From Pseudodesulfovibrio cashew (lineage in GTDB: Bacteria; Desulfobacterota; Desulfovibrionia; Desulfovibrionales; Desulfovibrionaceae), in assembly GCF_009762795.1 (NCBI RefSeq), contig NZ_CP046400.1:3555501-3619500 (forward strand): DNA of 64,000 nt, given 5' to 3'. Shown piece by piece: positions 43,838 through 57,466 of this stretch (positions are counted from its first letter, which is position 1; each line of letters opens with the position of its first letter). The notes beneath the pieces were generated by a model. It made no database searches, was not told where the DNA came from, and worked only from the letters and a program-made list of their open reading frames with translations. A program made the position numbers and the translations under genes.

Positions 43838-44056
43838 ATGAAGAACGAACAAACCTGTACCAAGACACGTGAAGTCGCCATTGAGCTGGGCGATTGCCGC
43901 TCATGCCAGGGCTGTATCGATCTCAACCCCGACGTATTCCAATGGGATGAAGCACTGGACATGCCCTATGTGTGCCGTTCCAAGGTTACCGAGGAAGAAG
44001 TCCGGGACATCATGAACACCTGTCCCGAAGGATGCATAGTTTTCGTAGATTGCTGA
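43838..44056 (+). CDS. Small 4Fe-4S ferredoxin-like protein
   Basis: The 72-residue protein has the GDCRSCQGCIDLNPDVF segment (C-x2-C-x2-C pattern) and a distal C-P-E-G-C motif, giving the four ligands of a single [4Fe-4S] cluster as in Desulfovibrio ferredoxins. The overall pattern matches the monocluster ferredoxin fold. No Shine-Dalgarno sequence precedes the ATG at 43838. It might supply electrons to a redox enzyme in the cell, but no partner is adjacent. Confidence 0.88.
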   Translation: MKNEQTCTKTREVAIELGDCRSCQGCIDLNPDVFQWDEALDMPYVCRSKVTEEEVRDIMNTCPEGCIVFVDC

Positions 44057-45526: not shown

Positions 45527-46981
45527 CTAGTGGTGCGCTCCACCGGAGATGGCCAGACCGAAAAGGTCCTTACCCGCAGTGATAGCGAAGTTGAACAGGG
45601 GGGCCGGGATGATGCCGATGATCAGCACGGCGGCGGCGAGCATTCCCGCTCCAGCCGAAGCGAACCAGCCATTATCAGGAGCAATTGCGGCATTGGGTGA
45701 CGTCTCCTCAGTGAAGGCGTGCCGGAACAAGCTCAGATAATAGTAGATGGCAATGGCGGAGTTCACGACCAGGGTGATGACCAGCCAGTTGTAGCCATGG
45801 TCCCAGGCCGAGGTGATCAGGAAGAACTTGCCCATGAAGCCCATGGTCGGCGGCAGGCCAACCAGGGCGAAGGCTCCGGCAGCCAGCGAGAACGCGAGCA
45901 CCGGGGCTTTCTTGTACAGACCGTTCAGATCGCTGAGTTCCAGGTTGCGTCCGTCGGAAGCGACCCGGGAAACGATCCAGAAGACCAGCAGGTTCATGAC
46001 CAAGTAGGCCAGAGCATAGAAGGCGGCGGCTGCCAATCCTTCCACGGTGCCGCTGACCAGACCGACCATGATGTACCCGGCGTGGGCCACGGAAGAGAAC
46101 CCGAGCAAGCGCTTGATGTCCTTCTGGGCCAGGGCCGAGAGGTTGCCGAAGGTCATGGAACAGGCTCCGAGCACGGCCAGCAGTGTAGTGATCTCCAGGC
46201 CGGGCTTGAGGAACATGGCCATACGGACGAGAACCACGATTGCGCCCATCTTGGGCATGGTGGCCACGTACGCGGCTGTTTCGTTGGAAGCGCCCTGATA
46301 GACATCCGGGCACCAGAAGTGGAACGGGAACAGGGCCAGCTTGAAGAACATGCCGCCCAGGAACAGACAGAGACCAACGACGGCCATGGGGCTGTCGGCA
46401 AAGGTCCAGTTCTTGGTGGCAAGTTCCGCGATGTAGGTCGTGTGCTGGCTGGCCATGATGTAGGACAAGCCGTACAGGGCCAGGGCCGTGGCGACCGCGC
46501 CGAACAGGATGTACTTGACGCCCGCCTCGGCTGCCCCCTTGGACTTGGCCCGGAGCGGGATGGTCGCGTACATGGCGTAGGAAGCCAGTTCCAGTGCCAG
46601 GTAGATGGTGATCAGTTCCACGCTGGATGCGAGCATCATCAGGCCCAGAGTGGAGAATCCAAGGAGCATGTAGTAGTCCGCGCGCTTCTCGTCGGCAAGG
46701 GTCGGCTGGCGTGACGCGTTGAGCACGGTCACGAAGAAGCCGAAGGCGATGGCGATCTTGAAGAACTGGGACATCATGTCCACTTTGTATACGTCGTAGA
46801 ACATGGAACCATGCACACTGTAGTGGGCAATGGTCACGAACAGGCCGAGACCGGCTCCGAAGGGAAGCCATTTTTCGACCTCGGGCTTCCACTCCCGGGT
46901 GCCGAGGCTCTGGATCATCAGAACCAGCACAAGGAAGAAGAAGTAGAGTTCCGGGACGATGAGACTGAGATTGAAGTTCAC
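45527..46981 (-). CDS. nuoN: NADH-quinone oxidoreductase subunit N (antiporter-like)
   Basis: NuoN is one of the proton-pumping membrane subunits of complex I. The 484-residue protein has about 14 hydrophobic helices and the ion-path residues: Glu in TM5 (ELASYAMYATI), Lys in TM7 (FFKLALFPFHFWCPDVYQGA), Lys in TM8 (PKMGAIVVLVR) and Lys in TM12 (PPTMGFMGKFFLI). The start is GTG at 46981 behind GGGGGA. It is the last gene of the operon. Confidence 0.96.
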   Translation of the reverse strand: MNFNLSLIVPELYFFFLVLVLMIQSLGTREWKPEVEKWLPFGAGLGLFVTIAHYSVHGSMFYDVYKVDMMSQFFKIAIAFGFFVTVLNASRQPTLADEKRADYYMLLGFSTLGLMMLASSVELITIYLALELASYAMYATIPLRAKSKGAAEAGVKYILFGAVATALALYGLSYIMASQHTTYIAELATKNWTFADSPMAVVGLCLFLGGMFFKLALFPFHFWCPDVYQGASNETAAYVATMPKMGAIVVLVRMAMFLKPGLEITTLLAVLGACSMTFGNLSALAQKDIKRLLGFSSVAHAGYIMVGLVSGTVEGLAAAAFYALAYLVMNLLVFWIVSRVASDGRNLELSDLNGLYKKAPVLAFSLAAGAFALVGLPPTMGFMGKFFLITSAWDHGYNWLVITLVVNSAIAIYYYLSLFRHAFTEETSPNAAIAPDNGWFASAGAGMLAAAVLIIGIIPAPLFNFAITAGKDLFGLAISGGAHH

Positions 46982-46993
46982 GTCTTGTCCCCC

Positions 46994-48526
46994 TTACTTA
47001 TTGGCAGCGAACACGGACAGGATGTCGTTCGCGGCGGTTTGAACCGGCTGTTCGGTTTCGACATGAGCGACCTTGCGCTGGCCGAAATCGGTAAGCAGCT
47101 TGTCGACGGACGGGTCAATGATCTTGAAGAACGGCGTGGGAGCCAGGCCGATCCAGAGGACAAACACGGCGGGAATGGTCAGGTAGATCCATTCACGGGC
47201 GTTGAGGTCCTTCCAGTTCTTGGCCGTGGAGGGCTTGCCCCAGGCCATCTTCAGCGACACGCGGAACATGTAGGCGGCCGCCAGCAGCGCGCCGGGCACG
47301 CAGAGGAAGCCGATCCAGGTGCTCTGCTGGAACGCACCGACGAAGACGAGCATTTCACCCACGAACCCGTTGGTTCCGGGGAAACCGAAGGAGGCCAGCG
47401 CCATGAAGCCCCAGAAGAACATGAAACCGGGCAGGTACTTGCCAAGGCCCATGTTCTTGGAGATCTCGCGACTGTGGCTCCGCTCGTAGACCGCGCCGAT
47501 CATCATGAAGAGCGCGCCGGTGACGATGCCGTGGTTGAGCATCTGGAAGAGCGCGCCTTCCACGCCGCGCTGATTGAACAGGAAGATGCCCAGCGTGACG
47601 AAGCCCATGTGGCCCACGGATGAGTAGGCGACCAGCTTCTTGATGTCCGTCTGCCCAAGGGCGATGGCTCCACCGTAGATGATTGACGCCAGGGATATGA
47701 CGATCATCATCGGGGCGAAGTACTCGCTGGCCGCCGGAGTCAGCGGCAGGCAGAAGCGCAGGAAGCCGTAGGTTCCCATCTTCAGCAGCACGGCCGCCAG
47801 GATGACGGAACCGGCCGAAGGCGCCTGGACGTGCGCAGCGGGCAGCCAGGTGTGGAACGGGAACATGGGCACCTTGATGGCGAACGCCAGGGCCATGGCC
47901 AGGAATGCCCAGAACTGGAAGCGGAAGCTGAAGTTCTGCTGCATGAGATCGGGAATTGAGAAGGTGCCGCCCGTGATCCGGAAGGCCACGATGGCCGCCA
48001 GGAGCAGGGTCGAACCCGCCAGGGTGTACAGGAAGAACTTGAGCGACGCATACTTGCGGTCGTCGCCACCCCAAACTGCGATAAGCAGATACATGGGGAT
48101 AAGCATGGCTTCCCAGAACACATAGAACAGGACCAGGTCCAGAGCGCAGAACACGCCGAGGACAGCACTGGTCATGAACAGCAGGCAGAAGTGGAATTCC
48201 TTCTCGCGTTTGCCGATGTAGGTCCACGAACACAGGACGCACAGCGGAAGGACCGCTACGGTCAACAGGACCATGAGTATGCTGATGCCGTCCACGCCGA
48301 GGTAGTACTGAAGTCCCCATTGGTGGACCCAGTCGATTTTCTCGACGAACTGGAAGGCGGCGTTGAGTTTGAAGTTAGCGAGGGGCACGGCGAGGAGGCA
48401 CTCGATGAGTGACACCGCAAGGGTGTAATACCTCACCACCGGCGCGGCCTTGATGAAGAAGAGACCACACGCCGCGACAAGCGGGAATGCGATCAACAGG
48501 GTGAGTACCGGATATCCGAAGTCCAA
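46994..48526 (-). CDS. nuoM: NADH-quinone oxidoreductase subunit M (antiporter-like)
   Basis: The 510-residue subunit has the typical NuoM features: DGISILMVLLTVAVLPL, FYVFWEAMLIPMYLLI with the TM5 Glu, AIKVPMFPFHTWLPAAHVQAP with the TM7 Lys, LLKMGTYGFLRF with the TM8 Lys and, in TM12, TNGFVGEMLVF with a Glu as in E. coli NuoM. It is followed by nuoN after 12 bases. Confidence 0.97.
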   Translation of the reverse strand: MDFGYPVLTLLIAFPLVAACGLFFIKAAPVVRYYTLAVSLIECLLAVPLANFKLNAAFQFVEKIDWVHQWGLQYYLGVDGISILMVLLTVAVLPLCVLCSWTYIGKREKEFHFCLLFMTSAVLGVFCALDLVLFYVFWEAMLIPMYLLIAVWGGDDRKYASLKFFLYTLAGSTLLLAAIVAFRITGGTFSIPDLMQQNFSFRFQFWAFLAMALAFAIKVPMFPFHTWLPAAHVQAPSAGSVILAAVLLKMGTYGFLRFCLPLTPAASEYFAPMMIVISLASIIYGGAIALGQTDIKKLVAYSSVGHMGFVTLGIFLFNQRGVEGALFQMLNHGIVTGALFMMIGAVYERSHSREISKNMGLGKYLPGFMFFWGFMALASFGFPGTNGFVGEMLVFVGAFQQSTWIGFLCVPGALLAAAYMFRVSLKMAWGKPSTAKNWKDLNAREWIYLTIPAVFVLWIGLAPTPFFKIIDPSVDKLLTDFGQRKVAHVETEQPVQTAANDILSVFAANK

Positions 48527-48552
48527 AACTTGCTCTCCTTAGATTGTCCGGC

Positions 48553-50349
48553 TTAGCCGAAGTACCATACCAGGGCGAAGATGCCCAAACCAAGAACGGT
48601 GGCATAGGCCAGGTAATCCTGCAGGTTCGCATTCTGGACCTTAGCCCCGAACCTGCCGATGTTCCTGACGCTGTAGGCGCTTCCGTCCACCACTGTATCG
48701 ATGCCCTTCTTATCGAAGACGCTTGTGCCTCTACCGGCGTCGATAAGAGCCTTGAGGCCCACGGTCCGGTATACCTCGGTCCAGACGTCATCGACCTTGG
48801 AGCTGGGCCAGCAGATCCCGCGCATGGTGACGCGTCCGATCAGGCGGTAGAACCAGTCGAAGTCCAGATTGAGGAAGGCGTGCGGCTTGATGACCTTACG
48901 AGTCAGGTAGAAGGCCAGGCCGGAGAAACCGAGCAGCAGGCTCGAGTTGATGACCTTGTCGATAGTCCAGGGGACGAACGCGTGATGCTCGACCTCGAAC
49001 GGAAGGTACTTGTAGAGCATGTGCGGGTAAACGCCCTGCGCGATACACAGGAGGCCCGCAATGGCCATGCCCACGTACATGTTGACCGGGATGGGCTTGA
49101 CCTCACCGGTGTATTCCTTCTTTCCGCCCCAGAACGCGAAGTACGGGAGCTTGACGCCCACCGAGATGAACGTACCCACTGCGGCGATCTCCATACCCAA
49201 GGCCAGCCAGGTGTGGTGCGCCTCGGCGGCGCCCGCAATGGTCATGGTCTTGGAGATGAAGCCGTTGAACAGCGGCATTCCGGAGATGGACAGCGCCGCG
49301 ACCATGTACCAAACCATGACCCACGGCAATTTGTAGGCCAGGCCGCCCAGCTCGTCGAGCTTGGCGGTGCCCACGGAGTACAGGACCGCGCCGGTTCCCA
49401 TGAACAGCAGGCCCTTATAGAGGATATGCGCATAGGCGTGAGCCACGGCGCCGTTGAGCGTCATGGCGGTGCCGATGCCGATGCCGGCGACCATGTATCC
49501 CACCTGCGAAACGATGTGGTAGGAGAGGATGCGCCGTGCGTTGTTTTCAATACACGCGTAAAGCACGCCGTAGACAGCCATGCAGGTACCGGCGATGGCC
49601 AGGACCTCCCAACCGGCGAATCCGCGGCAGAGCACGTAGACAGCGGTCTTGGTGGTGAAGGCGCACATGTACACCGCGCCACCCACGGAGGCCCGGGGGT
49701 AGGCGTCGGGCAGCCATGCGTGCAGCGGCACCACGGCGGCGTTCACGCAGAAGCCGATCAGGATCAGCCAGTCATAGAACTGGGCATGGCTCGCCTCCAC
49801 GCCGACGAAGGCGAAGGAGCCGGTGGCCTTGTACTTGAGCAGCAGCCCCGCCAGCAGGAACAACCCGCCCACGGTGTGGTACAGGAAGTACCGGAAACCC
49901 GCGTTCACGCACTCCTTGGTCCGGGCCTGCCAGATCAGGAAGGTGGAGCCGATGGACATGAGTTCCCAGAACAGGAACACAGTCAGCAGGTCGGCCGCGA
50001 ACACGCAGCCGAAGCCGCCCGCCACGTACAGGGACGAGGCCACGTAGTGTCCCTTGTCCTCCACGTGCATGCCGTAGATTGCGCCCGCAAAGGCGATGAT
50101 GGCGAAGACCTGGCCGAAGACGATGGACAGCTTGTCCACCCGGCCCAGGATCAGCGTCTGATCAAGGTAGCGCAGGGCACCGTACATGCCCGGTTCCACG
50201 GACATGATGCCGTAGAGCGCGATAAGCGGCGCGAGGATGGCAAGAGCCCCCCTGAACGCCTTGTTGAGCCACAGCCCCTTGGGGACCAGCGGCACGATGG
50301 CCGCCAGCGCCAGGAACGCCATGGAGGGATGGATGAAGCTAGTCTCCAT
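48553..50349 (-). CDS. MrpD/NuoL-type antiporter-like subunit (Na+/H+ antiporter subunit D family)
   Basis: The 598-residue membrane protein has about 14 helices of the NuoL/M/N and MrpD superfamily, plus a C-terminal soluble extension (about residues 480-580) ending in another helix. TM5 Glu129 (VFLFWELMS), TM8 Lys234 (FTTKTAVYVL) and TM12 Lys (FNGFISKTMTI) are present. The TM7 position, normally Lys before PLHxWLP, is Asn203 (CVNAAVVPLHAWLPDAY). It is the third antiporter-like subunit gene of the operon and may take part of the role of NuoL. Confidence 0.88.
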   Translation of the reverse strand: METSFIHPSMAFLALAAIVPLVPKGLWLNKAFRGALAILAPLIALYGIMSVEPGMYGALRYLDQTLILGRVDKLSIVFGQVFAIIAFAGAIYGMHVEDKGHYVASSLYVAGGFGCVFAADLLTVFLFWELMSIGSTFLIWQARTKECVNAGFRYFLYHTVGGLFLLAGLLLKYKATGSFAFVGVEASHAQFYDWLILIGFCVNAAVVPLHAWLPDAYPRASVGGAVYMCAFTTKTAVYVLCRGFAGWEVLAIAGTCMAVYGVLYACIENNARRILSYHIVSQVGYMVAGIGIGTAMTLNGAVAHAYAHILYKGLLFMGTGAVLYSVGTAKLDELGGLAYKLPWVMVWYMVAALSISGMPLFNGFISKTMTIAGAAEAHHTWLALGMEIAAVGTFISVGVKLPYFAFWGGKKEYTGEVKPIPVNMYVGMAIAGLLCIAQGVYPHMLYKYLPFEVEHHAFVPWTIDKVINSSLLLGFSGLAFYLTRKVIKPHAFLNLDFDWFYRLIGRVTMRGICWPSSKVDDVWTEVYRTVGLKALIDAGRGTSVFDKKGIDTVVDGSAYSVRNIGRFGAKVQNANLQDYLAYATVLGLGIFALVWYFG

Positions 50350-50602
50350 AATAATCCTCCTCGCGTTTGATAAAGGGCTGGACGATTTTCTTCATGATAA
50401 TGACCATCGCGAGACCGACGACGAGACCGAAGGCTCCGAAGAAGCCGGGATACTTGTCCACGCCGAAGTGCGGATGGTGCGTCACAAACGGGACGTTCAG
50501 AAGCAGCAGTATGCCGAGCACACCGAAGAAGATGTATTTGAACGTCTTCTTCTTCTCGCTCCACTGCTTCAGGAGCCCGCCTAATCCTTGTTGTTCACTC
50601 AT
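50339..50602 (-). CDS. Small two-helix membrane protein of the nuo operon
   Basis: The 87-residue protein has a basic N-terminus (LLKQWSEKKKTFKY), a hydrophobic helix (IFFGVLGILLLLNVPFV), a loop HHPHFGVDKYPG and a second helix (FFGAFGLVVGLAMVIIM). The C-terminus is charged (KREEDYYGD). I recognise no named family. It overlaps the following antiporter-like gene by eleven bases and sits between the two MrpD-like subunits, so it is probably a small accessory or coupling subunit of the complex. Confidence 0.85.
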   Translation of the reverse strand: MSEQQGLGGLLKQWSEKKKTFKYIFFGVLGILLLLNVPFVTHHPHFGVDKYPGFFGAFGLVVGLAMVIIMKKIVQPFIKREEDYYGD

Positions 50603-50612
50603 ATCTTCCTCC

Positions 50613-52160
50613 CTAGAACTTGCCGAGCATGTTGACGAAGTTCAGGAACGTCTGCGGATACAGACCCAGGAACACGGAGATGGTGGCTGTGATGCACAGC
50701 GGCACGACCATGGTCTTGGATGCCTCGTTGTACTGGCCGATGTTGGCCTCCTCGGACGGCGTCTTGAAAAAGGCGCGGTAGAGGATGGGCACAAAGTAGC
50801 CGGCGTTCAGGGCCGTACTGAGCAGCAGCATGACCAGCAGCGGCCACTGATTCGAATCCAGGGTACCGTTGATCAGGTACCATTTGGACACGAAGCCGCA
50901 GACCGGCGGCATACCGATCATGGACAGAGACGCGATGCCGAAGGCACCGAAGGTCCACGGCATCCTGCGGCCCAGTCCGTCCATCAGCGAGATCTTCTTC
51001 AGGTGCGTGGCGACATAGATTGCGCCAGCGGCCATAAAGAGTGTGATCTTGGAGAAGGCGTGGTGGGCGATGTGCATGACGCCGCCCTGCACGGCCGAAT
51101 CCACAAGCATGGTCACGCCGACCACGACGTAGGAGAGCTGGGCCACTGTCGAGTAGGCCAGCCGCGCCTTGATGTCGTCCTTGGTCAGGGCGATGAACGA
51201 GGCCACCACCAGGGTGAAGCCCGCGATATACGCCGTGCCGTGCGCGATGCAGGTGTCGCCAAGTATTGTGCCGGGCGAACCGATGTAGATCTGGCTCATG
51301 GTCAGCGCTCCGGCGACCTTGGTGCCGAAACCGGACAGAATGATGCGGCAGACGCAGAAGACACCGGCCTTAACAACGGCCACAGCGTGCAGCAAGGCCG
51401 AGACCGGAGTCGGTGCGACCATGGCGGACGGGAGCCAGTTGTGGAACGGCATGAGAGCCGCCTTGCCGATGCCGAAGATGTACAGCCAGTAGGTCAGCGC
51501 CACCAGCCTGGGGTGGGCGGCGACCACGTCCGGGGTGAACATGCCGTTGACGATGTCCGCCAGGTGGAAGTCCAGGTTGCCGACCAGCACGTAGGTCAGG
51601 ACCATGGCCGGCAGCAGGAAGAGCTTGGAAGTACCCATCAGGTAGACGATGTACTTGCGCGCTCCGATTTTCGCGTCCGCGTCCTCGTGGTGGTAGACCA
51701 GAGGATAGGTGAACACGGTGATGATCTCGTAGAAGAGATACAGGGTGAACACGTTGGCCGACAGGGCCACGCCCACGGCGCCGAAGATGGCTACCGCGAA
51801 GCAGACATAGTAACGGGTCTGCGCGTGCTCGTTAAGGCCGCGCATGTAGCCGATGTTGTAGCTGGTCACGAAGAACCAGAGGAACGGCGCGATCAGGCCG
51901 AAGACCATGGACAGGCCGTCGGCGGCAAAGGCAATGGTTATTCCGGGCAACAGTGTGGTGACTTCGTAGTACCAGACATGCCCGTTGAGAACGGCGGGTG
52001 CCATGGACACCACGCTGCCGAACGTAAGTGCGGCGGCGATGAAGCTGACGGCCTCACGCCGGTTTTCATCTTTACGACAGAGCCAGACAAAGAGCGGCGC
52101 AAGCAGTGTAATCACCACCGGCAGCAAAATCCTGGCAGAGACTATGGTAACCCCTTCCAT
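50613..52160 (-). CDS. Monovalent cation/H+ antiporter subunit D-like (NuoL/MrpD family)
   Basis: The 515-residue subunit carries DGLSMVFGLIAPFLWFFVTS, a TM5 Glu (YLFYEIITVFTYPLV), TM7 Lys (GIGKAALMPFHNWLPSAMVAPTPVSALLHA), TM8 Lys (VVKAGVF) and TM12 Lys (PPVCGFVSKWYLI). The APTPVSALLHA motif is typical of NuoL and MrpD. It lacks the long C-terminal lateral helix of E. coli NuoL, which has about 610 residues. It lies directly downstream of nuoK, the normal place for nuoL. Confidence 0.9.
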   Translation of the reverse strand: MEGVTIVSARILLPVVITLLAPLFVWLCRKDENRREAVSFIAAALTFGSVVSMAPAVLNGHVWYYEVTTLLPGITIAFAADGLSMVFGLIAPFLWFFVTSYNIGYMRGLNEHAQTRYYVCFAVAIFGAVGVALSANVFTLYLFYEIITVFTYPLVYHHEDADAKIGARKYIVYLMGTSKLFLLPAMVLTYVLVGNLDFHLADIVNGMFTPDVVAAHPRLVALTYWLYIFGIGKAALMPFHNWLPSAMVAPTPVSALLHAVAVVKAGVFCVCRIILSGFGTKVAGALTMSQIYIGSPGTILGDTCIAHGTAYIAGFTLVVASFIALTKDDIKARLAYSTVAQLSYVVVGVTMLVDSAVQGGVMHIAHHAFSKITLFMAAGAIYVATHLKKISLMDGLGRRMPWTFGAFGIASLSMIGMPPVCGFVSKWYLINGTLDSNQWPLLVMLLLSTALNAGYFVPILYRAFFKTPSEEANIGQYNEASKTMVVPLCITATISVFLGLYPQTFLNFVNMLGKF

Positions 52161-52166
52161 AACAAG

Positions 52167-52475
52167 CTACTCCTTCAAGGTGGTGATATCGCTGGACCGG
52201 GCGGATTTGAAACGCCTGGCCACAACTACTACAATGGCCAGCACAATGGTCGCTTCGGCCGCGGCGAGACCCATGACGAACAGGGTGCCGAGCTGGCCGA
52301 GGGTTGCGCTGAAATCGGTCAGTTGCGCGGCCGCCACCATGGACAGGCCGGCTCCGTTGAGCATCAGCTCGACGCAGATCAGCATACCGACGAGACTCCG
52401 ACGCTGGGTCAGACCGAACAGGCCCGCGCATAACAGGATCAGAGCCACCAATTGATACAGAGTCAGGGCACTCAT
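52167..52475 (-). CDS. nuoK: NADH-quinone oxidoreductase subunit K
   Basis: The 102-residue three-helix subunit has RRSLVGMLICVELMLNGAGL with the TM2 Glu and FVMGLAAAEATIVLAIVV with the second buried Glu, both needed for proton movement in complex I. It is followed six bases later by the antiporter-like gene and preceded directly by nuoJ. Confidence 0.97.
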   Translation of the reverse strand: MSALTLYQLVALILLCAGLFGLTQRRSLVGMLICVELMLNGAGLSMVAAAQLTDFSATLGQLGTLFVMGLAAAEATIVLAIVVVVARRFKSARSSDITTLKE

Positions 52476-52985
52476 CTATTTCTTCCCCCTTTTCTCCCAG
52501 GTCAGCAGCACGGCGCCGGACATGGCGACCATGAGGATGACCGAGATCAGCTCAAAGGGCAGGAAGTACGAGCCCATCAGCTCGCCGCCCAGTTGCTTGA
52601 TGGAGACCTCGACAGGGGTGGCGATGGACGCCACGGGTCGGGTCAGCACCAGCCAGCCGAGCACCGCCGCAGGGGCGATGGTCGCGGCCAGTCCGAGGAC
52701 ATATGTCTTCATGGGGGCCTTTTCTCCCTCGTCGCCACCCTGCTCCGCGCGCGTCAGCATGACCGCGAAGAAGATGAGGACCGAGACGGCGCCCACGTAG
52801 ATGAGCAGTTGCATGAAGGCCATGAACGGGGTGGCCAGCAGCATGTACATCCCGGCCACGCCGATGAGGGTCGTGATGAGCCCCACCAAGGCGCGGACCA
52901 GGCTGGAGCTGGTTACCGCGAATATGGACCCGCCCAGTATGACGAGCGTGTAGACGCAGAATGCGACTTTTGCCATTATTTCCAT
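52476..52985 (-). CDS. nuoJ: NADH-quinone oxidoreductase subunit J
   Basis: The 169-residue subunit has five hydrophobic segments, with the conserved VALVGLITTLIGVAGMYMLL-type TM region (here ALVGLITTLIGVAGMYMLL), MQLLIYVGAVSVLIFFAVML and a C-terminal LISVILMVAMSGAVLL. Its stop adjoins the nuoK start. NuoJ links the Q-site subunits to the antiporter row. Confidence 0.95.
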   Translation of the reverse strand: MEIMAKVAFCVYTLVILGGSIFAVTSSSLVRALVGLITTLIGVAGMYMLLATPFMAFMQLLIYVGAVSVLIFFAVMLTRAEQGGDEGEKAPMKTYVLGLAATIAPAAVLGWLVLTRPVASIATPVEVSIKQLGGELMGSYFLPFELISVILMVAMSGAVLLTWEKRGKK

Positions 52986-52987
52986 AG

Positions 52988-53578
52988 TTAAGCCTCCTTC
53001 TCCGCCGAGGGCTTGGCCTCGGCCTTGGGAGCGGGAGCCGGAGCGGACACTTCCGTGGCCTGTTCCTTCAAGCGAGCGAGGAGATCAATGTTCATCTCTT
53101 CCCTGCTCGTTGCCACCCAATACATATTATTTGAATACCGAAGCGACTTCACCGGGCAGTTGTCTATGCAGGTGCCGCACAGGCTGCACAGGGTGTAATC
53201 GTAGGTGAACTTGAGAGGATTCTTGGGAGCCTTGGGCTTGACGACCTTTTCTCCCGCCTCCTTGGCGGCCTTCATGGCGGCCTCCTGCTCGGGCGTGGGC
53301 TTGGGGGCCTTCTGCTTGACCAGTTTCAGGCAGTTGCTCGGGCAGTTGGTCACGCACATCATGCACGAGATGCATTTGGGCATGGCCGGATCCTTGGGCT
53401 TGCCGATGAGTTCGACATGCCCGCCGTATGTGGACAGATTCTCGTCGTCAATGACCTGGCGCGGATAGTGGACCGTGATCAGGGGCTTGCAAAAGTACTT
53501 GCCCGTGATCTTCAGACCCACAATCAGCGACCAGCAGTCGAGAATCGGCTGTATGACGTGTTCCTTGAATTTTCCCAT
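52988..53578 (-). CDS. nuoI: NADH-quinone oxidoreductase subunit I with charged insert between Fe-S motifs
   Basis: NuoI carries clusters N6a and N6b. The 196-residue protein has Cys69-x2-Cys72-x2-Cys75-x3-Cys79-Pro (CISCMMCVTNCP) and Cys131-x2-Cys134-x2-Cys137-x3-Cys141-Pro (CSLCGTCIDNCP). Between them is an Ala/Lys/Glu/Pro-rich segment of roughly 30 residues (about 89-118, containing KPTPEQEAAMKAAKEAGEK) that is absent from most NuoI. A Pro/Ala-rich tail (APAPAPKAEAKP) follows the second motif. It sits between nuoH and nuoJ. Confidence 0.96.
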   Translation of the reverse strand: MGKFKEHVIQPILDCWSLIVGLKITGKYFCKPLITVHYPRQVIDDENLSTYGGHVELIGKPKDPAMPKCISCMMCVTNCPSNCLKLVKQKAPKPTPEQEAAMKAAKEAGEKVVKPKAPKNPLKFTYDYTLCSLCGTCIDNCPVKSLRYSNNMYWVATSREEMNIDLLARLKEQATEVSAPAPAPKAEAKPSAEKEA

Positions 53579-53588
53579 AGCTACACCC

Positions 53589-54572
53589 CTACAGCTTGAT
53601 GAGCAGCGCGGTGACCAGCAGGTTCGCTGTGGCCAACGGCAAGAGCCATTTCCAGTTGATGTTCAGGAGCTGGTCGAACCGCACGCGGGGGTAGGTCCAG
53701 CGGGCCCAGATCATGACGAAGAGCAGCGCGTAGGTCTTGATCAGCATCCACCACCATCCTTCGATGCCCGGGATGGGGCCATTGAAGCCGCCCAGGAAAA
53801 GGACGGAGCAGATGGAACAGATCACGACCATGTAGCCGTATTCCGCCATGAAGAAGAGGCCGAAGCCCATGGACGAATACTCGGTGTGAAAACCGGCGGT
53901 CAGCTCGGACTCGGCCTCGGCCAGGTCAAACGGAGCGCGGTTGGTTTCGCCGAACATCGCCACGATGAATATCAGGAAGGCCAGAGGCTGTTTCCAGATG
54001 AGCCAGTTGCCGATGTGGCCGCTCTGCTGCGCAGTGATCTCGGTCAGGTCCAGGGAACCGGTCATGAACGAGATGGTCAGCACGACCAGCAGCAGCGGGA
54101 TTTCGTATGCCACGGTCTGGGCAACGGCACGGGCCGCGCCGAGCACGCCCCATTTGTTGTTGGAGGCCCAGCCCGCGAGGATCACGGCCAGTCCGTTGAA
54201 GCTGGAGAAAGCCAGGATCAGGAGCAGGCCGAGGTTGACGTGCATCCCCGTCAGCACGGGGCCGTAGGGAATGGGCATGAAGAGCACCAGCACCGGAATC
54301 ATGGACAGGATCGGGGCCAACCAGAAGAGGAAGCCATCCGCATTGTCCGGAGTCAGGAGCTGCTTGCTCATGAGTTTCAAACCGTCGATGAGCGGCTGAA
54401 GCGCACCGTGGGGACCAACCTCGTACGGGCCGGGGCGACGCTGGATGTGGCCCGCGAACTTACGCTCGCAGTAGACCAGGACCAACGCATTGAGCCCCAA
54501 CCAGACCATGGCTGCGACAACGGCGATGATCAGCGGCAATATGTATTGCATGAATATTTCCATAATTATCAC
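53589..54572 (-). CDS. nuoH: NADH-quinone oxidoreductase subunit H
   Basis: NuoH anchors the peripheral arm and forms the quinone-access chamber. The 327-residue protein has ERKFAGHIQRRPGPYEVGPHG, LIDGLKLMSKQ, a WASNNKWGVLGAARAVAQTVAYEIPL segment and the long EAESELTAGFHTEYSSMGFG loop. Several conserved Glu and Asp residues known to line the quinone route are there. It follows nuoD by one base. Confidence 0.97.
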   Translation of the reverse strand: MIIMEIFMQYILPLIIAVVAAMVWLGLNALVLVYCERKFAGHIQRRPGPYEVGPHGALQPLIDGLKLMSKQLLTPDNADGFLFWLAPILSMIPVLVLFMPIPYGPVLTGMHVNLGLLLILAFSSFNGLAVILAGWASNNKWGVLGAARAVAQTVAYEIPLLLVVLTISFMTGSLDLTEITAQQSGHIGNWLIWKQPLAFLIFIVAMFGETNRAPFDLAEAESELTAGFHTEYSSMGFGLFFMAEYGYMVVICSICSVLFLGGFNGPIPGIEGWWWMLIKTYALLFVMIWARWTYPRVRFDQLLNINWKWLLPLATANLLVTALLIKL

Positions 54573-54573
54573 C

Positions 54574-55746
54574 CTACCTGTCGAGTTCCGGAATGATCAG
54601 GTCCAGGCTGCCGAGGATGGCAACCGCGTCCGCGAGGATGGTTCCCTGAGCGGACTCGGCAAAGGCATTCATGTTGGAGAAGCCCGGTGCGCGCAGCTTG
54701 ACGCGATACGGCACCTTGGACCCGTCGGAGACGACATAGACGCCGATCTTTCCGCGTCCGCCCTCCACGTTGAAGTAGGCCTCGCCCGCCGGCGGCTTCA
54801 TGGCAGGCTTGGGAGCCTTGTCCACGATGTGCTTGCCCTCGGCTCCGTCCAGCTGCTCCAGCGCCTGTTCGATGATGCGCATGGACTGCTCCATCTCTTC
54901 CAGCCGGACGTGATAGCGTCCAGCGGAACAGGCGGAGGTCTGAACCGGGATGTCGAAGTCGAAACGGTCGTACACGGAGAACGGTTCGTCCTTGCGCACG
55001 TCGTAGGGCACACCCGCGCCCCGGAGGACCGGACCGGTACAGCCGTAGCGCTGACACATGTCCTGATCGATGATGCCCACGCCTTCGATGCGCCGCCTGA
55101 GAATCAGGTTCTCGGTGACCAGGTCGTGGTACATGGGCAGTCTCTCGCGGAAGTGCGGGATGAAGGCCTTCATCAGTTCGATACACTTGTCGTCGAAGTC
55201 CGACTGCACGCCGCCAATGCGGAAATTGGAGTAGGTCAGCCTGGAGGCGGAAGGCCTCTGCAGGATGTCCAGGATCATTTCACGATCGTCGAACGCGTAC
55301 ATGATCGGAGTAAACGCGCCAAGGTCGAGTATGTAGGCGCCCCACCACAGCAGATGCGAGGTGAGGCGGTTGAACTCATTCATTATCACGCGCAGGTATT
55401 CCGCGCGTTCGGGCACCTCGATGCCCATCAGTTTTTCCACTGCGCCACAGTAGGCCCAGTTCCACGCCATTGCGTGGCCGTAGTCGACCCTTCCCATGTT
55501 GGGGATGAATCCCCCCCAGGTCTGGGTCTCGCCCATTTTTTCGTGCATGCGGTGCAGGTAGCCAAGTACTGGCTCGGCGCGGACGATGTATTCGCCGTCG
55601 ACCTCGATCACGATCCTGAGCACGCCGTGTGTAGACGGATGCTGCGGACCCATGTTGATGATCAAGGTTCCGTCCTGCTTCCCGGCCTCAAACTTACGGG
55701 TGTAGAAATCACCCGTCATTTGGTCCATATTCTGGTAAGCCGACAT
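54574..55746 (-). CDS. nuoD: NADH-quinone oxidoreductase subunit D
   Basis: NuoD (49-kDa subunit homologue) forms the quinone site together with NuoB. The 390-residue protein has MGPQHPSTHGVLRIVIEVDGE, with the quinone-side His, and YGHAMAWNWAYCGAVEKLMGI, NEFNRLTSHLLWWGAY, LRGAGVPYDVRKDEPFSVYD and the C-terminal segment containing DAVAILGSLDLIIPELDR. It is a separate protein from NuoC here. It precedes nuoH directly. Confidence 0.97.
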   Translation of the reverse strand: MSAYQNMDQMTGDFYTRKFEAGKQDGTLIINMGPQHPSTHGVLRIVIEVDGEYIVRAEPVLGYLHRMHEKMGETQTWGGFIPNMGRVDYGHAMAWNWAYCGAVEKLMGIEVPERAEYLRVIMNEFNRLTSHLLWWGAYILDLGAFTPIMYAFDDREMILDILQRPSASRLTYSNFRIGGVQSDFDDKCIELMKAFIPHFRERLPMYHDLVTENLILRRRIEGVGIIDQDMCQRYGCTGPVLRGAGVPYDVRKDEPFSVYDRFDFDIPVQTSACSAGRYHVRLEEMEQSMRIIEQALEQLDGAEGKHIVDKAPKPAMKPPAGEAYFNVEGGRGKIGVYVVSDGSKVPYRVKLRAPGFSNMNAFAESAQGTILADAVAILGSLDLIIPELDR

Positions 55747-55789
55747 AAACTTTCAATCCGGTGTTGTGGTGACCGGCCGGTTTCCCGAC

Positions 55790-56317
55790 CTACGCTTCGG
55801 AGGCCTCCTCGGCCTCCTCTTCCGCAAACAGCGCTTCTATGTCCTTATTACAGGAGACGACCTCTCCGAGGCTCAGGACGTCCTTGATGGATTTCCTGAC
55901 CTTGGCGGTCTTAAGCAGCGGGTGGACGTCCACGTCCTCGGCCGGCATGAGCAGCGGCACGAGGTTGGGATTTCCCTCGAAGTTGACGCCATGGAAGTCG
56001 CGGGTTTCCCGCTCATGCCACTCGGCGCCGTGGAAAATCCCGGCAATGGACGGCACCGTGGGGTTGTCCTTGGAGACAAGCACCCGCAGTGTGACCCGCT
56101 CATCGATGGTCCACCGGTTGAAATGATACAGCACTAAAAATCCCTCTTCGAAGTCCAATGCGAGGACGTCTTCAAGGGAGTAGCCGGTCTCGTAGAGCCG
56201 TTTGGCGGCTTTGACGAGTTGGCCCGGCGCCAGAAAGACGGACCAGACATGACCCGTCGAACCTTTGTCCTGTTTCGCCACGCATTGGGTGGCGATGCCT
56301 TCAAGCGCTTTCAGCAT
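55790..56317 (-). CDS. nuoC: NADH-quinone oxidoreductase subunit C
   Basis: The 175-residue protein shows the NuoC/30-kDa subunit segment FLVLYHFNRWTIDERVTLRVLV, then VPSIAGIFHGAEWHERETRDFHGVNFEGNP. The conserved ERETRDFxGxxFxGHP motif is nearly complete, with Asn-Pro in place of His-Pro. The C-terminal region is short and acidic (EEAEEASEA). It lies between nuoB and nuoD. Confidence 0.95.
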   Translation of the reverse strand: MLKALEGIATQCVAKQDKGSTGHVWSVFLAPGQLVKAAKRLYETGYSLEDVLALDFEEGFLVLYHFNRWTIDERVTLRVLVSKDNPTVPSIAGIFHGAEWHERETRDFHGVNFEGNPNLVPLLMPAEDVDVHPLLKTAKVRKSIKDVLSLGEVVSCNKDIEALFAEEEAEEASEA

Positions 56318-56320
56318 GGA

Positions 56321-56866
56321 TTAACCCTCCACCTCGGCGGCCACAGGCCACCAGCGCTTACCGGTTATCAGCCGCTGGAGCTGGAAGAAGCCCTCAAGGA
56401 GCCCTTCCGGCCTGGGCGGACAGCCCGGCACGTAGACGTCGACGGGAATGAGCGTATCAACACCCTCGACCACGTTGTAGTTGTCCTTAATCTTGAAAGG
56501 CCCGCCGGAGATGGCGCAGTTGCCCATGGCGATGACCCACTTGGGTCCGGGCATCTGTTCGTAGAGCCTGACGACCGCCGGAGCCATCTTCTTGGTCACG
56601 GTCCCGGCGACGATCATCACGTCCGCCTGGCGCGGCGAAGGCCGGAAGACTTCCGCGCCGAAACGGGCCATGTCGAATCGTGCCATACCCGTGGCCATCA
56701 TCTCGATGGCGCAGCAGGCCAGACCGAACGTCATGGGCCAAAGGGACATTGACCGACAGACGTCGAAGAGATCCTGTGCCAACTGGATGTTGACCAGCGG
56801 GGCATCCATGTGATGGTTGCCCGTGGTCAGGAAATCCTTTTGCATTACTGAATCCTGCGCGGCCAT
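56321..56866 (-). CDS. nuoB: NADH-quinone oxidoreductase subunit B
   Basis: NuoB holds the terminal [4Fe-4S] cluster N2. The 181-residue protein has the tandem-Cys motif [30 protein letters not shown] and [11 protein letters not shown], giving the four N2 ligands. The start at 56866 overlaps the end of nuoA by 22 bases. Confidence 0.97.
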
Positions 56867-57222
56867 GTGAACACCCCTTTCGCCCAGAAGTAGACGACGG
56901 AAAGAATAAGGAATAACAGGAAGATGAAGACCTTTACAAAAGGTACCCAGCCATCAGCGTCAACGTACGCCGTAGAAACGGGGAAGAGGTAAAGGACATC
57001 CACGTCGAAGGCGAGGAAGATCAGGGCGTAAACGTAGTAGTTCACCCCCCAACGCGTCCATGAGCTGCCGTAGGGGACCATGCCGCACTCATACGGCATC
57101 CCGACGTCCCCACCCCGAGCTTTCGGGGCGAACAGCATCGCCAAAATCAACGGCCCGCAGGCAAATAGAAAGCCCGCGAGCAAAAACAAAACAATCGCAA
57201 AATGCAGCCAATCGAAAACCAT
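56845..57222 (-). CDS. nuoA: NADH-quinone oxidoreductase subunit A
   Basis: The 125-residue three-helix subunit starts at ATG 57222 behind AAAGGAT. It has the family's [38 protein letters not shown] segment, in which the conserved Cys, Glu and Asp line the quinone path, and a C-terminal YFWAKGVF. It is the first gene of the 13-gene operon. An in-frame ORF extends slightly upstream, but lacks a better ribosome site. Confidence 0.96.
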
Positions 57223-57466
57223 ACCTATATCCTTTGGCAGTAACATTGCAAACGACCTGTGGGAAACACAGCTTTCCCAAGGTTACCGAACTCCATGCAC
57301 CGAAAAAAGGGCTAAGTCAAGCACATTGCTATTTTTTTCTCAAAGTCTGGGCCCTGTAACCAACTATATTCATTGAATCTACGCAAAGTGCAGAATGCTC
57401 TGAGGCCCTGTCCGAGCAGGGCTCAGCCGCCCTTCGCCCACCTGTCGGCAGAACTAAATTCTGCAA
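57223..57466. other. Upstream region of the nuo operon, no gene
   Basis: It should hold the nuoA promoter on the minus strand. A TTGACT box is visible there near 57313-57318, but no clear -10 matches it. The stretch near 57400-57430 has a short GC-rich arm (AGGCCCTGTCCGAGCAGGGCT). No coding sequence is supported. Confidence 0.45.

Follow-up and report, generated by a model that had tools for sequence, protein, structure and literature searches.

This analysis concerns a complex I (Nuo) operon of the sulfate reducer Pseudodesulfovibrio cashew that lies on the minus strand within a stretch of 64,000 nucleotides (the window; contig NZ_CP046400.1, positions 3,555,501 to 3,619,500 of the forward strand). 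The operon carries two genes for MrpD-like antiporter subunits, named MrpD1 (515 amino acids, aa) and MrpD2 (598 aa) in this analysis, with a small gene between them, and MrpD2 has asparagine at the position in transmembrane helix 7 (TM7) that is otherwise held by lysine. The reading favoured here, which is considered moderately likely, is that the operon encodes a green-type complex I that lacks the NADH module, with three canonical antiporter modules, a non-canonical MrpD2, ferredoxin as the most likely donor, and MrpD1 at the distal end of the membrane arm.

The TM7 position of MrpD2

Antiporter-type subunits are each described as carrying a pair of TM5 Glu and TM7 Lys. It has been reported that their TM7 Lys is "absolutely conserved, essential" (PMC7419157) and that the pair is essential for catalysis in Nqo13 (PMC9802314). 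In the first residue comparison, a single alignment of 449 sequences, MrpD2 has Asn at the TM7 position in 108/109 rows from Nuo contexts and 12/13 rows from Mrp contexts, and Lys is present in MrpD1 (106/106), NuoM (101/101), NuoN (92/93, with one Arg), and the third subunit of Mrp clusters, MrpX (13/13). Similarly, a second alignment gives Lys for NuoL (15/15), two MrpA, two canonical MrpD, three Hyf sequences, and the hydrogenase-type subunit of the window's genome. The 2/122 MrpD2 rows without Asn are a frameshifted one of L127 (Arg), whose gene is broken into two open reading frames (ORFs), and one of L193 (Lys), a 677-aa protein that we read as not being MrpD2.

The TM7 residue of the window's MrpD2 is Asn203, and it is accompanied by conserved His158 and Tyr108, each found in 120/122 MrpD2 rows. 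When both L127 rows, of which the frameshifted ORF aligns poorly, and the L193 row (666 residues trimmed, 677 aa untrimmed) are removed and the window and S. meliloti sequences are added, all three residues occur in 121/121 sequences, and their equivalents are carried by the haloarchaeal MrpD2. His158 aligns to residue 174 and Tyr108 to residue 123 of E. coli NuoL, which would place them in TM6 and TM4, respectively, on our reading of the helices. At the His158 position, NuoM has Thr and NuoN has Gly in all rows, and NuoL has Thr or Asn; at the Tyr108 position, NuoL has Phe (15/15), and Tyr appears in no MrpD1, NuoM, or NuoN row. Further MrpD2-specific positions are Asn269, Tyr311, Tyr446, and Asp496, at 119 or 120/121. 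Judged from these alignments, the TM7 Asn has become fixed in a protein that is intact in other respects, and it does not reflect decay.

The first-pass annotation had counted four antiporter-type subunits and had suggested that ion translocation may be extended. The count holds by homology, since PF00361 matches all four operon proteins; the genome has one further PF00361 protein elsewhere, adjoining a NuoH-family gene, and this only other antiporter-type subunit sits in what we read as an Ech/Coo-like membrane hydrogenase-type cluster (L011 8585-11334). The extension is doubtful: MrpD2 lacks the TM7 Lys of the Glu-Lys pair and is therefore not a canonical fourth pump, so that a fourth canonical proton pump appears doubtful from sequence comparison.

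It is possible, but unlikely, that all four subunits pump, with His158 replacing the TM7 Lys in MrpD2, a stoichiometry of 5 H+/2e−, and ferredoxin as donor. The conservation of MrpD2 is strong and extends to the remaining residues of the axis, and His158 is peculiar to MrpD2 (0/93 NuoN, 0/101 NuoM, 0/13 MrpX, 0/15 NuoL; the residues listed at this position for MrpD1 cover 104/106 rows and include no His). In addition, both MrpD-like subunits of green complex I have been counted as ion-pumping (PMC9040806), and published work on green and 2M complex I assumes 5 H+/2e−. However, no report of pumping was found in the available literature for an antiporter-type subunit whose TM7 residue is not Lys; none reports Asn at this position either, and HycC of E. 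coli formate hydrogenlyase, the one precedent found, has Leu208 at this site and showed no evident route for protons to the P side (PMC9474812). Moreover, 5 H+ could be translocated only at a proton-motive force below about 0.14–0.17 V on the potentials given in the next section.

That MrpD2 conducts Na+ (or K+), with the enzyme translocating both H+ and Na+, is distinctly less probable. The same three genes, with the same Asn, also occur in Mrp-type cation/proton antiporter clusters (L178, L193, and further loci), and the TM7 Lys proved dispensable in a Na+-resistance assay (PMC4938563), but in the solved Mrp complex the N-terminal part of MrpA together with MrpD is described as the H+-translocating domain and the cation path is assigned to another part (PMC7419157).

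Operon content, the missing NADH module, and the electron donor

The first-pass annotation had placed the operon at 45527–57222, and the ORF map of the window confirms one minus-strand run of 13 consecutive ORFs, head to tail, with overlaps of at most 22 and gaps of at most 43 bases, in the order it gave: nuoA-B-C-D-H-I-J-K, MrpD1, the small two-helix gene, MrpD2, nuoM, and nuoN. Its end at 57222 lies inside the nuoA ORF and corresponds to a later start, the ORF itself beginning at 57246. Ten ORFs were assigned as Nuo subunits (A, B, C, D, H, I, J, K, M, N) through Pfam and/or NCBIfam. All genes are listed below.

56845..57246, minus strand: nuoA, the operon's first gene (Pfam PF00507)
56321..56866, minus strand: nuoB (PF01058)
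55790..56317, minus strand: nuoC (PF00329)
54574..55746, minus strand: nuoD (PF00346; NF004739 over cut-off)
53589..54572, minus strand: nuoH (PF00146; NF004741 over cut-off)
52988..53578, minus strand: nuoI (Fer4 families; best NCBIfam match NuoI, below cut-off)
52476..52985, minus strand: nuoJ (PF00499)
52167..52475, minus strand: nuoK (PF00420; NF004320 over cut-off)
50613..52160, minus strand: MrpD1-like antiporter subunit, 515 aa (NF006236, 743.8 bits, cut-off 663)
50339..50602, minus strand: small protein, 87 aa, between MrpD1 and MrpD2, with two hydrophobic stretches of helix length
48553..50349, minus strand: MrpD2-like antiporter subunit, 598 aa (NF009310, 706.5 bits, cut-off 564)
46994..48526, minus strand: nuoM (TIGR01972, 575.9 bits, cut-off 263.8)
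45527..46981, minus strand: nuoN (TIGR01770, 337.8 bits, cut-off 332.6)

NF006236 describes a putative monovalent cation/H+ antiporter subunit D and NF009310 a Na(+)/H(+) antiporter subunit D. The operon contains none of the MrpB/C/E/F/G genes of an Mrp antiporter. An energy-converting [NiFe] hydrogenase would have two CxxC pairs in its large subunit; no such ligand pairs were seen in the NuoD translation read by eye, and NuoD matches NuoD families.

The absence of nuoE, nuoF, and nuoG noted in the first-pass annotation is borne out by a search of the whole genome (one contig, 3.91 Mb, completeness 100). PF01257 (NuoE) gives 0 matches. PF01512 gives two matches, neither of which is read as NuoF proper: one is a 447-aa protein with SLBB, RnfC_N, and 4Fe-4S domains whose neighbours are read as microcompartment shell proteins, and which we take to be PduS-like in a microcompartment-like cluster (L009 6948-10158); the other is a weak match in a protein read as RnfC within an Rnf cluster. 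A NuoF located elsewhere in the genome was thus rejected. For NuoG, TIGR01973 gives 12 partial matches across the genome, the best at 58.7 bits against a cut-off of 470, which we read as molybdopterin enzymes. Canonical NuoL is likewise missing (best genome score with TIGR01974 226 against a cut-off of 407.5 bits), and MrpD1 and MrpD2 stand in its place.

Because no NuoEFG is found in the complete genome, entry of NADH through these subunits is very unlikely, as the first-pass annotation had supposed for NuoF. Ferredoxin has already been proposed as donor for the NuoEFG-less Nuo of Desulfovibrio (PMC4287179, PMC3608642). Two full-length pyruvate:ferredoxin oxidoreductases are present in the genome, so reduced ferredoxin should be available, and by analogy it is the likeliest electron donor. 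Ferredoxin has a potential of −0.42 to −0.50 V and menaquinone of −0.07 V. From these values, transfer from ferredoxin to menaquinone would yield about 0.7–0.85 eV per 2e−, which covers 4 H+ at 0.17–0.2 V, and transfer from NADH about 0.5 eV, insufficient for 4 H+; these estimates therefore support a low-potential donor and mildly disfavour a fourth pump.

The NuoI translation has two 4Fe-4S motifs with a Lys-rich linker between them and an Ala/Pro/Lys/Glu-rich tail, and the linker and tail might be a docking site for an acidic carrier; NuoI ORFs in more distant loci are often about 145–155 aa. Meanwhile, a 72-aa single-cluster 4Fe-4S ferredoxin (PF13370) is encoded at 43838-44056 on the opposite strand, about 1.5 kb past nuoN; it is a possible candidate donor, although nothing ties it to the complex. 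It is quite improbable that the donor is an unlinked module, oxidising NADH or formate, that is docked on the Q-module: it has been proposed that several donors can dock on NuoEFG-less enzymes (PMC11238625), and several proteins of the genome have NuoG-type domains, but NuoE and NuoF proper are missing from the genome and the PduS-like protein lies in a microcompartment-like cluster.

The MrpD1-small-MrpD2 cassette

The relation of the two MrpD-like subunits to NuoL was examined in a tree of 107 antiporter subunits, built by a quick search with support from the Shimodaira–Hasegawa-like approximate likelihood ratio test (SH-aLRT) and no bootstrap. MrpD1 and MrpD2 form one clade each, both with SH-aLRT 100; a recent tandem duplication of MrpD-like genes was rejected on this ground, and a duplication of NuoM of the 2M type was rejected as both clades lie outside NuoM. 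MrpD1 clusters with NuoL, MrpA, HyfD, and the genome's hydrogenase subunit (SH-aLRT 89), and it retains TM5 Glu, TM7 Lys, TM8 His/Lys, TM10 His/His/Lys, and TM12 Lys. The branching position of MrpD2 is unsettled in this tree, and it is MrpD2 that has the NuoL-type C-terminus, including the last TM helix. The label "NuoL/MrpD-like", given in the first-pass annotation to the first of the two genes, is thus apt for the core of MrpD1, which groups with NuoL and MrpA, but not for its C-terminus, as the NuoL-type lateral-helix region is found on MrpD2.

It has been reported that the length of the lateral helix (HL) varies with the number of subunits spanned (PMC9474812), and that complexes in which it spans one extra subunit have an insert of about 26 residues (PMC9040806). 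A direct hhalign alignment of MrpD2 with E. coli NuoL ended before the C-terminal region, and the length was estimated from the hydropathy gap between TM15 and TM16. The gap is 96 residues in the window's MrpD2, with medians of 96 for MrpD2 in Nuo contexts (n = 107, including one L127 row), 97 in Mrp contexts (n = 12), and 89 for NuoL (n = 15), and it is 93 in S. meliloti MrpD2; for E. coli NuoL the automatic value of 122 was judged wrong and 83 was obtained on reading, and four MrpD2 values of 123 look likewise wrong. A 26-residue insert in MrpD2 is rejected by the gap of 96 against the NuoL median of 89. The near-standard length fits a helix that runs over MrpD2, NuoM, and NuoN with MrpD1 beyond it, which suggests that MrpD1 may sit at the distal tip of the membrane arm.

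The two-helix small protein described in the first-pass annotation is likewise borne out, with hydrophobic stretches at residues 24-40 and 54-70 of its 87 aa and the family signature HxHF..E..PGF.A.FG...K...REDYYD. The window protein matches no Pfam or NCBIfam family at E 0.001, and a PDB search with it gave one match only, at E 1.2. Pfam and NCBIfam profiles run against 41 small-protein members gave scattered weak matches with E up to 1, none from a family found in more than 5/41, the best being PF13239 ("2TM", E 1.7e-4). A search of viral contigs for relatives led nowhere. The ratio of nonsynonymous to synonymous substitution rates (dN/dS) has a median of 0.10 and a maximum of 0.41 among 166 pairs with 0 < dS < 2 drawn from 20 sequences within the genus (of its 20 relatives with a match, all but G111 were included, giving 19); the median shows that the small protein is real and constrained, and a spurious ORF is ruled out by it. 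Fusions of the small gene to MrpD1 or MrpD2, sought as a clue to contacts, were absent from the 120 loci described below.

In the proposed mechanism, the Q-module (NuoB, C, D, H, I) would accept electrons from a cytoplasmic carrier of low potential, for which reduced ferredoxin is the most likely candidate, and pass them through the NuoI and NuoB clusters to menaquinone. The membrane arm would be ordered N-M-MrpD2-small-MrpD1 from the quinone end; MrpD2 would provide the strap-like lateral helix, the part played by NuoL in ordinary complex I, MrpD1 would be a complete NuoL/MrpA-like proton module at the tip, and the small protein may act as a linker at the MrpD2/MrpD1 interface. The N-terminal half channel of MrpD2 would be rewired, with Glu129 facing Asn203 plus His158/Tyr108 in place of the Glu-Lys pair, and it is more probable that this subunit serves as a relay, a structural element, or a module of different selectivity than that it pumps protons as a fourth canonical module. 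NuoN, NuoM, and MrpD1 would then be the three canonical antiporter modules which, together with the E-channel, would keep the stoichiometry near 4 H+/2e−. If this holds, the small protein would add a new subunit to the membrane arm of an enzyme that is common among sulfate reducers.

Several points weigh against this mechanism. Almost every MrpD2 row retains TM5 Glu, TM8 Lys, TM10 His/Lys, and TM12 Lys, and MrpD2 may therefore still move protons by another route; E. coli NuoL K229A behaved like wild type in complementation of B. subtilis mrpA (PMC4938563), so the TM7 Lys is not required in every assay. The lateral-helix region of MrpD2 is about 7 residues longer than that of NuoL and is measured by hydropathy only, and the spatial order is therefore not proved. 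In the haloarchaeal Mrp cluster the small gene is missing although MrpD1 and MrpD2 are both present, which makes the small protein dispensable in some MrpD1/MrpD2 pairs. In addition, the operon encodes no donor.

The distribution of the cassette was followed in 120 loci, namely 40 selected ones and the best 80 of at least 583 confirmed matches obtained when named genomes were scanned with an MrpD2 alignment; since MrpD2 or the small protein led to every one of them, these loci are uninformative on genomes with neither. The three genes are consecutive in 114/120, the other six (L121, L134, L154, L167, L171, L191) being interrupted by contig ends, and the intergenic distances are at most 223 bases between MrpD1 and the small gene and at most 60 between the small gene and MrpD2. 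Nuo clusters account for 78 of the best 80 loci, and the full cassette is visible in 72 of these; the arrangement is therefore not rare. The remaining two, L178 (Desulfurivibrio) and L193 (a Spirochaetia metagenome-assembled genome), are of Mrp type, with MrpE/F/G/DUF4040/B/C-like genes and a third MrpD-like protein. By script, nuoA, nuoH, and nuoN all lie inside the stretch in 43/80, and the others are partial, mostly through contig ends. NuoE- or NuoF-like genes flank 4/80 (L138, L177, L179, L181); short or cut clusters such as L188 are not judgeable in this respect, and NuoF-like matches of 86 aa (L180) and 235 aa (L097) were not counted as NuoF. The 40 selected loci comprise 30 Nuo and 10 Mrp clusters; L127, L128, and L096 had been labelled Mrp by the script owing to a split MrpD1 and were reassigned to Nuo from their gene lists. 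At a broader scale, matches to the small protein, some weak and perhaps of Mrp type, occur in 92/149 genomes of the class, and NF009310 scores over cut-off in 129/297 genomes of the phylum, in either context.

Some loci depart from the usual pattern. L149 has the order nuoK-nuoM-MrpD1-small-MrpD2-nuoN, with the cassette between M and N. Telmatospirillum siberiense (L125), which we take to be an alphaproteobacterium, has a Nuo cluster that includes the cassette, with no NuoE/F visible in the stretch and an MrpD2 59% identical to the window's, and it perhaps acquired the cluster by horizontal transfer. Nine loci in other genomes of the phylum (L079, L083, L091, L094, L095, L101, L106, L109, L111) have an Mrp-type cluster in which a third MrpD-like protein accompanies MrpD1, the small gene, and MrpD2; a second cluster of this kind was not seen in the window's own genome.

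A joined MrpD1+MrpD2 tree of 108 loci (95 Nuo, 13 Mrp), computed with a fast model, has Mrp-type loci as its early branches and requires at least three changes of context; its root is the haloarchaeal pair, itself of Mrp type, which biases it toward an Mrp-first order, and several inner nodes are poorly supported. In the 107-sequence tree, too, the haloarchaeal and other Mrp rows are early within both MrpD clades, with support weak in places. These trees suggest repeated transfer of the cassette between Mrp antiporters and complex I, with less certainty as to its direction. It is tentatively proposed, as something close to an even call, that an ancient exchangeable cassette, shared with bacterial Mrp clusters and present without the small gene in a haloarchaeon, replaced NuoL in complex I, and that its MrpD2 has the TM5-Glu/TM7-Lys switch replaced by fixed Glu/Asn plus His/Tyr.

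Comparison with known systems

The closest arrangement is rhizobial green complex I (PMC9040806, PMC7415380, PMC4967309), in which two MrpD-like subunits likewise replace NuoL. Sinorhizobium pSymA and Ensifer share with the window the J-K-MrpD1-small-MrpD2-M-N run and have an MrpD2 with TM7 Asn, at about 44–45% identity to the window's. However, their A-B-C-D genes follow N, H and I are on the other strand, and nuoE and nuoF are present, nuoG being listed for Ensifer alone (the gene table for Sinorhizobium has gaps), whereas the window's genome has no NuoEFG; the NADH module with an extra cluster in NuoG described for green complex I (PMC4967309) is thus lacking, there being no NuoE and no NuoG over cut-off.

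In related bacteria, NuoEFG-less Nuo has been described for Desulfovibrio gigas and the oral Desulfovibrio Dsv1 (PMC4287179, PMC3608642), with the same genes missing and ferredoxin proposed as donor, and similar complexes are named in D. desulfuricans ATCC 27774 and D. propionicus (abbreviated so in PMC3608642). The available portions of these reports make no mention of two MrpD-like genes, a small gene, or a TM7 change in the Nuo operon; Solidesulfovibrio alcoholivorans (L122) does have the cassette. Another NuoEFG-less complex, described as nuoABCDHIJKLMN, shares the ferredoxin model but has a single nuoL. Measured against this 11-subunit type, the window has NuoA, B, C, D, H, I, J, K, M, and N (NuoI below the NuoI cut-off) and no NuoE, F, or G in the genome, but no canonical NuoL.

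The 2M complex I of Nitrospira (via PMC9040806) also has four antiporter-type subunits, but its extra copy is a NuoM, and the window has one NuoM, with both MrpD clades outside that family. The lateral-helix insert of the 2M NuoL is about as long as the 26-residue insert in Manganitrophaceae MrpD2 (PMC9040806), and by hydropathy the window shows no such insert (96 against the NuoL median of 89). Three-antiporter-subunit Mrp antiporters (L178, L193, and the haloarchaeal L115) share MrpD1 and MrpD2, and the bacterial ones also the small gene, but their runs include a third MrpD-like subunit and genes of the MrpB/C/E/F/G type and lack a Q-module.

A literature search for MrpD1 and MrpD2 by name found nothing, and the available literature yielded no description of the MrpD2 TM7 change or of the small protein, for which priority is not claimed. 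NuoEFG-less Nuo in Desulfovibrio and the replacement of NuoL by two MrpD subunits in green complex I are already known; what is added here, from sequence comparison, is the conserved cassette, the Asn for TM7 Lys with new His/Tyr, and the near-standard lateral-helix length. Higher pumping stoichiometries have been proposed from subunit counts for complex I variants with four and five pumps (PMC9040806), and if one of the counted subunits is without a residue thought essential, such values may be too high. A change kept across phyla offers a direct test between one proton per subunit and transfer along the axis with ejection at the tip; if the proposal of an exchangeable cassette is true, MrpD2 would be a natural test of whether every antiporter subunit pumps by itself or some merely relay charge to the tip.

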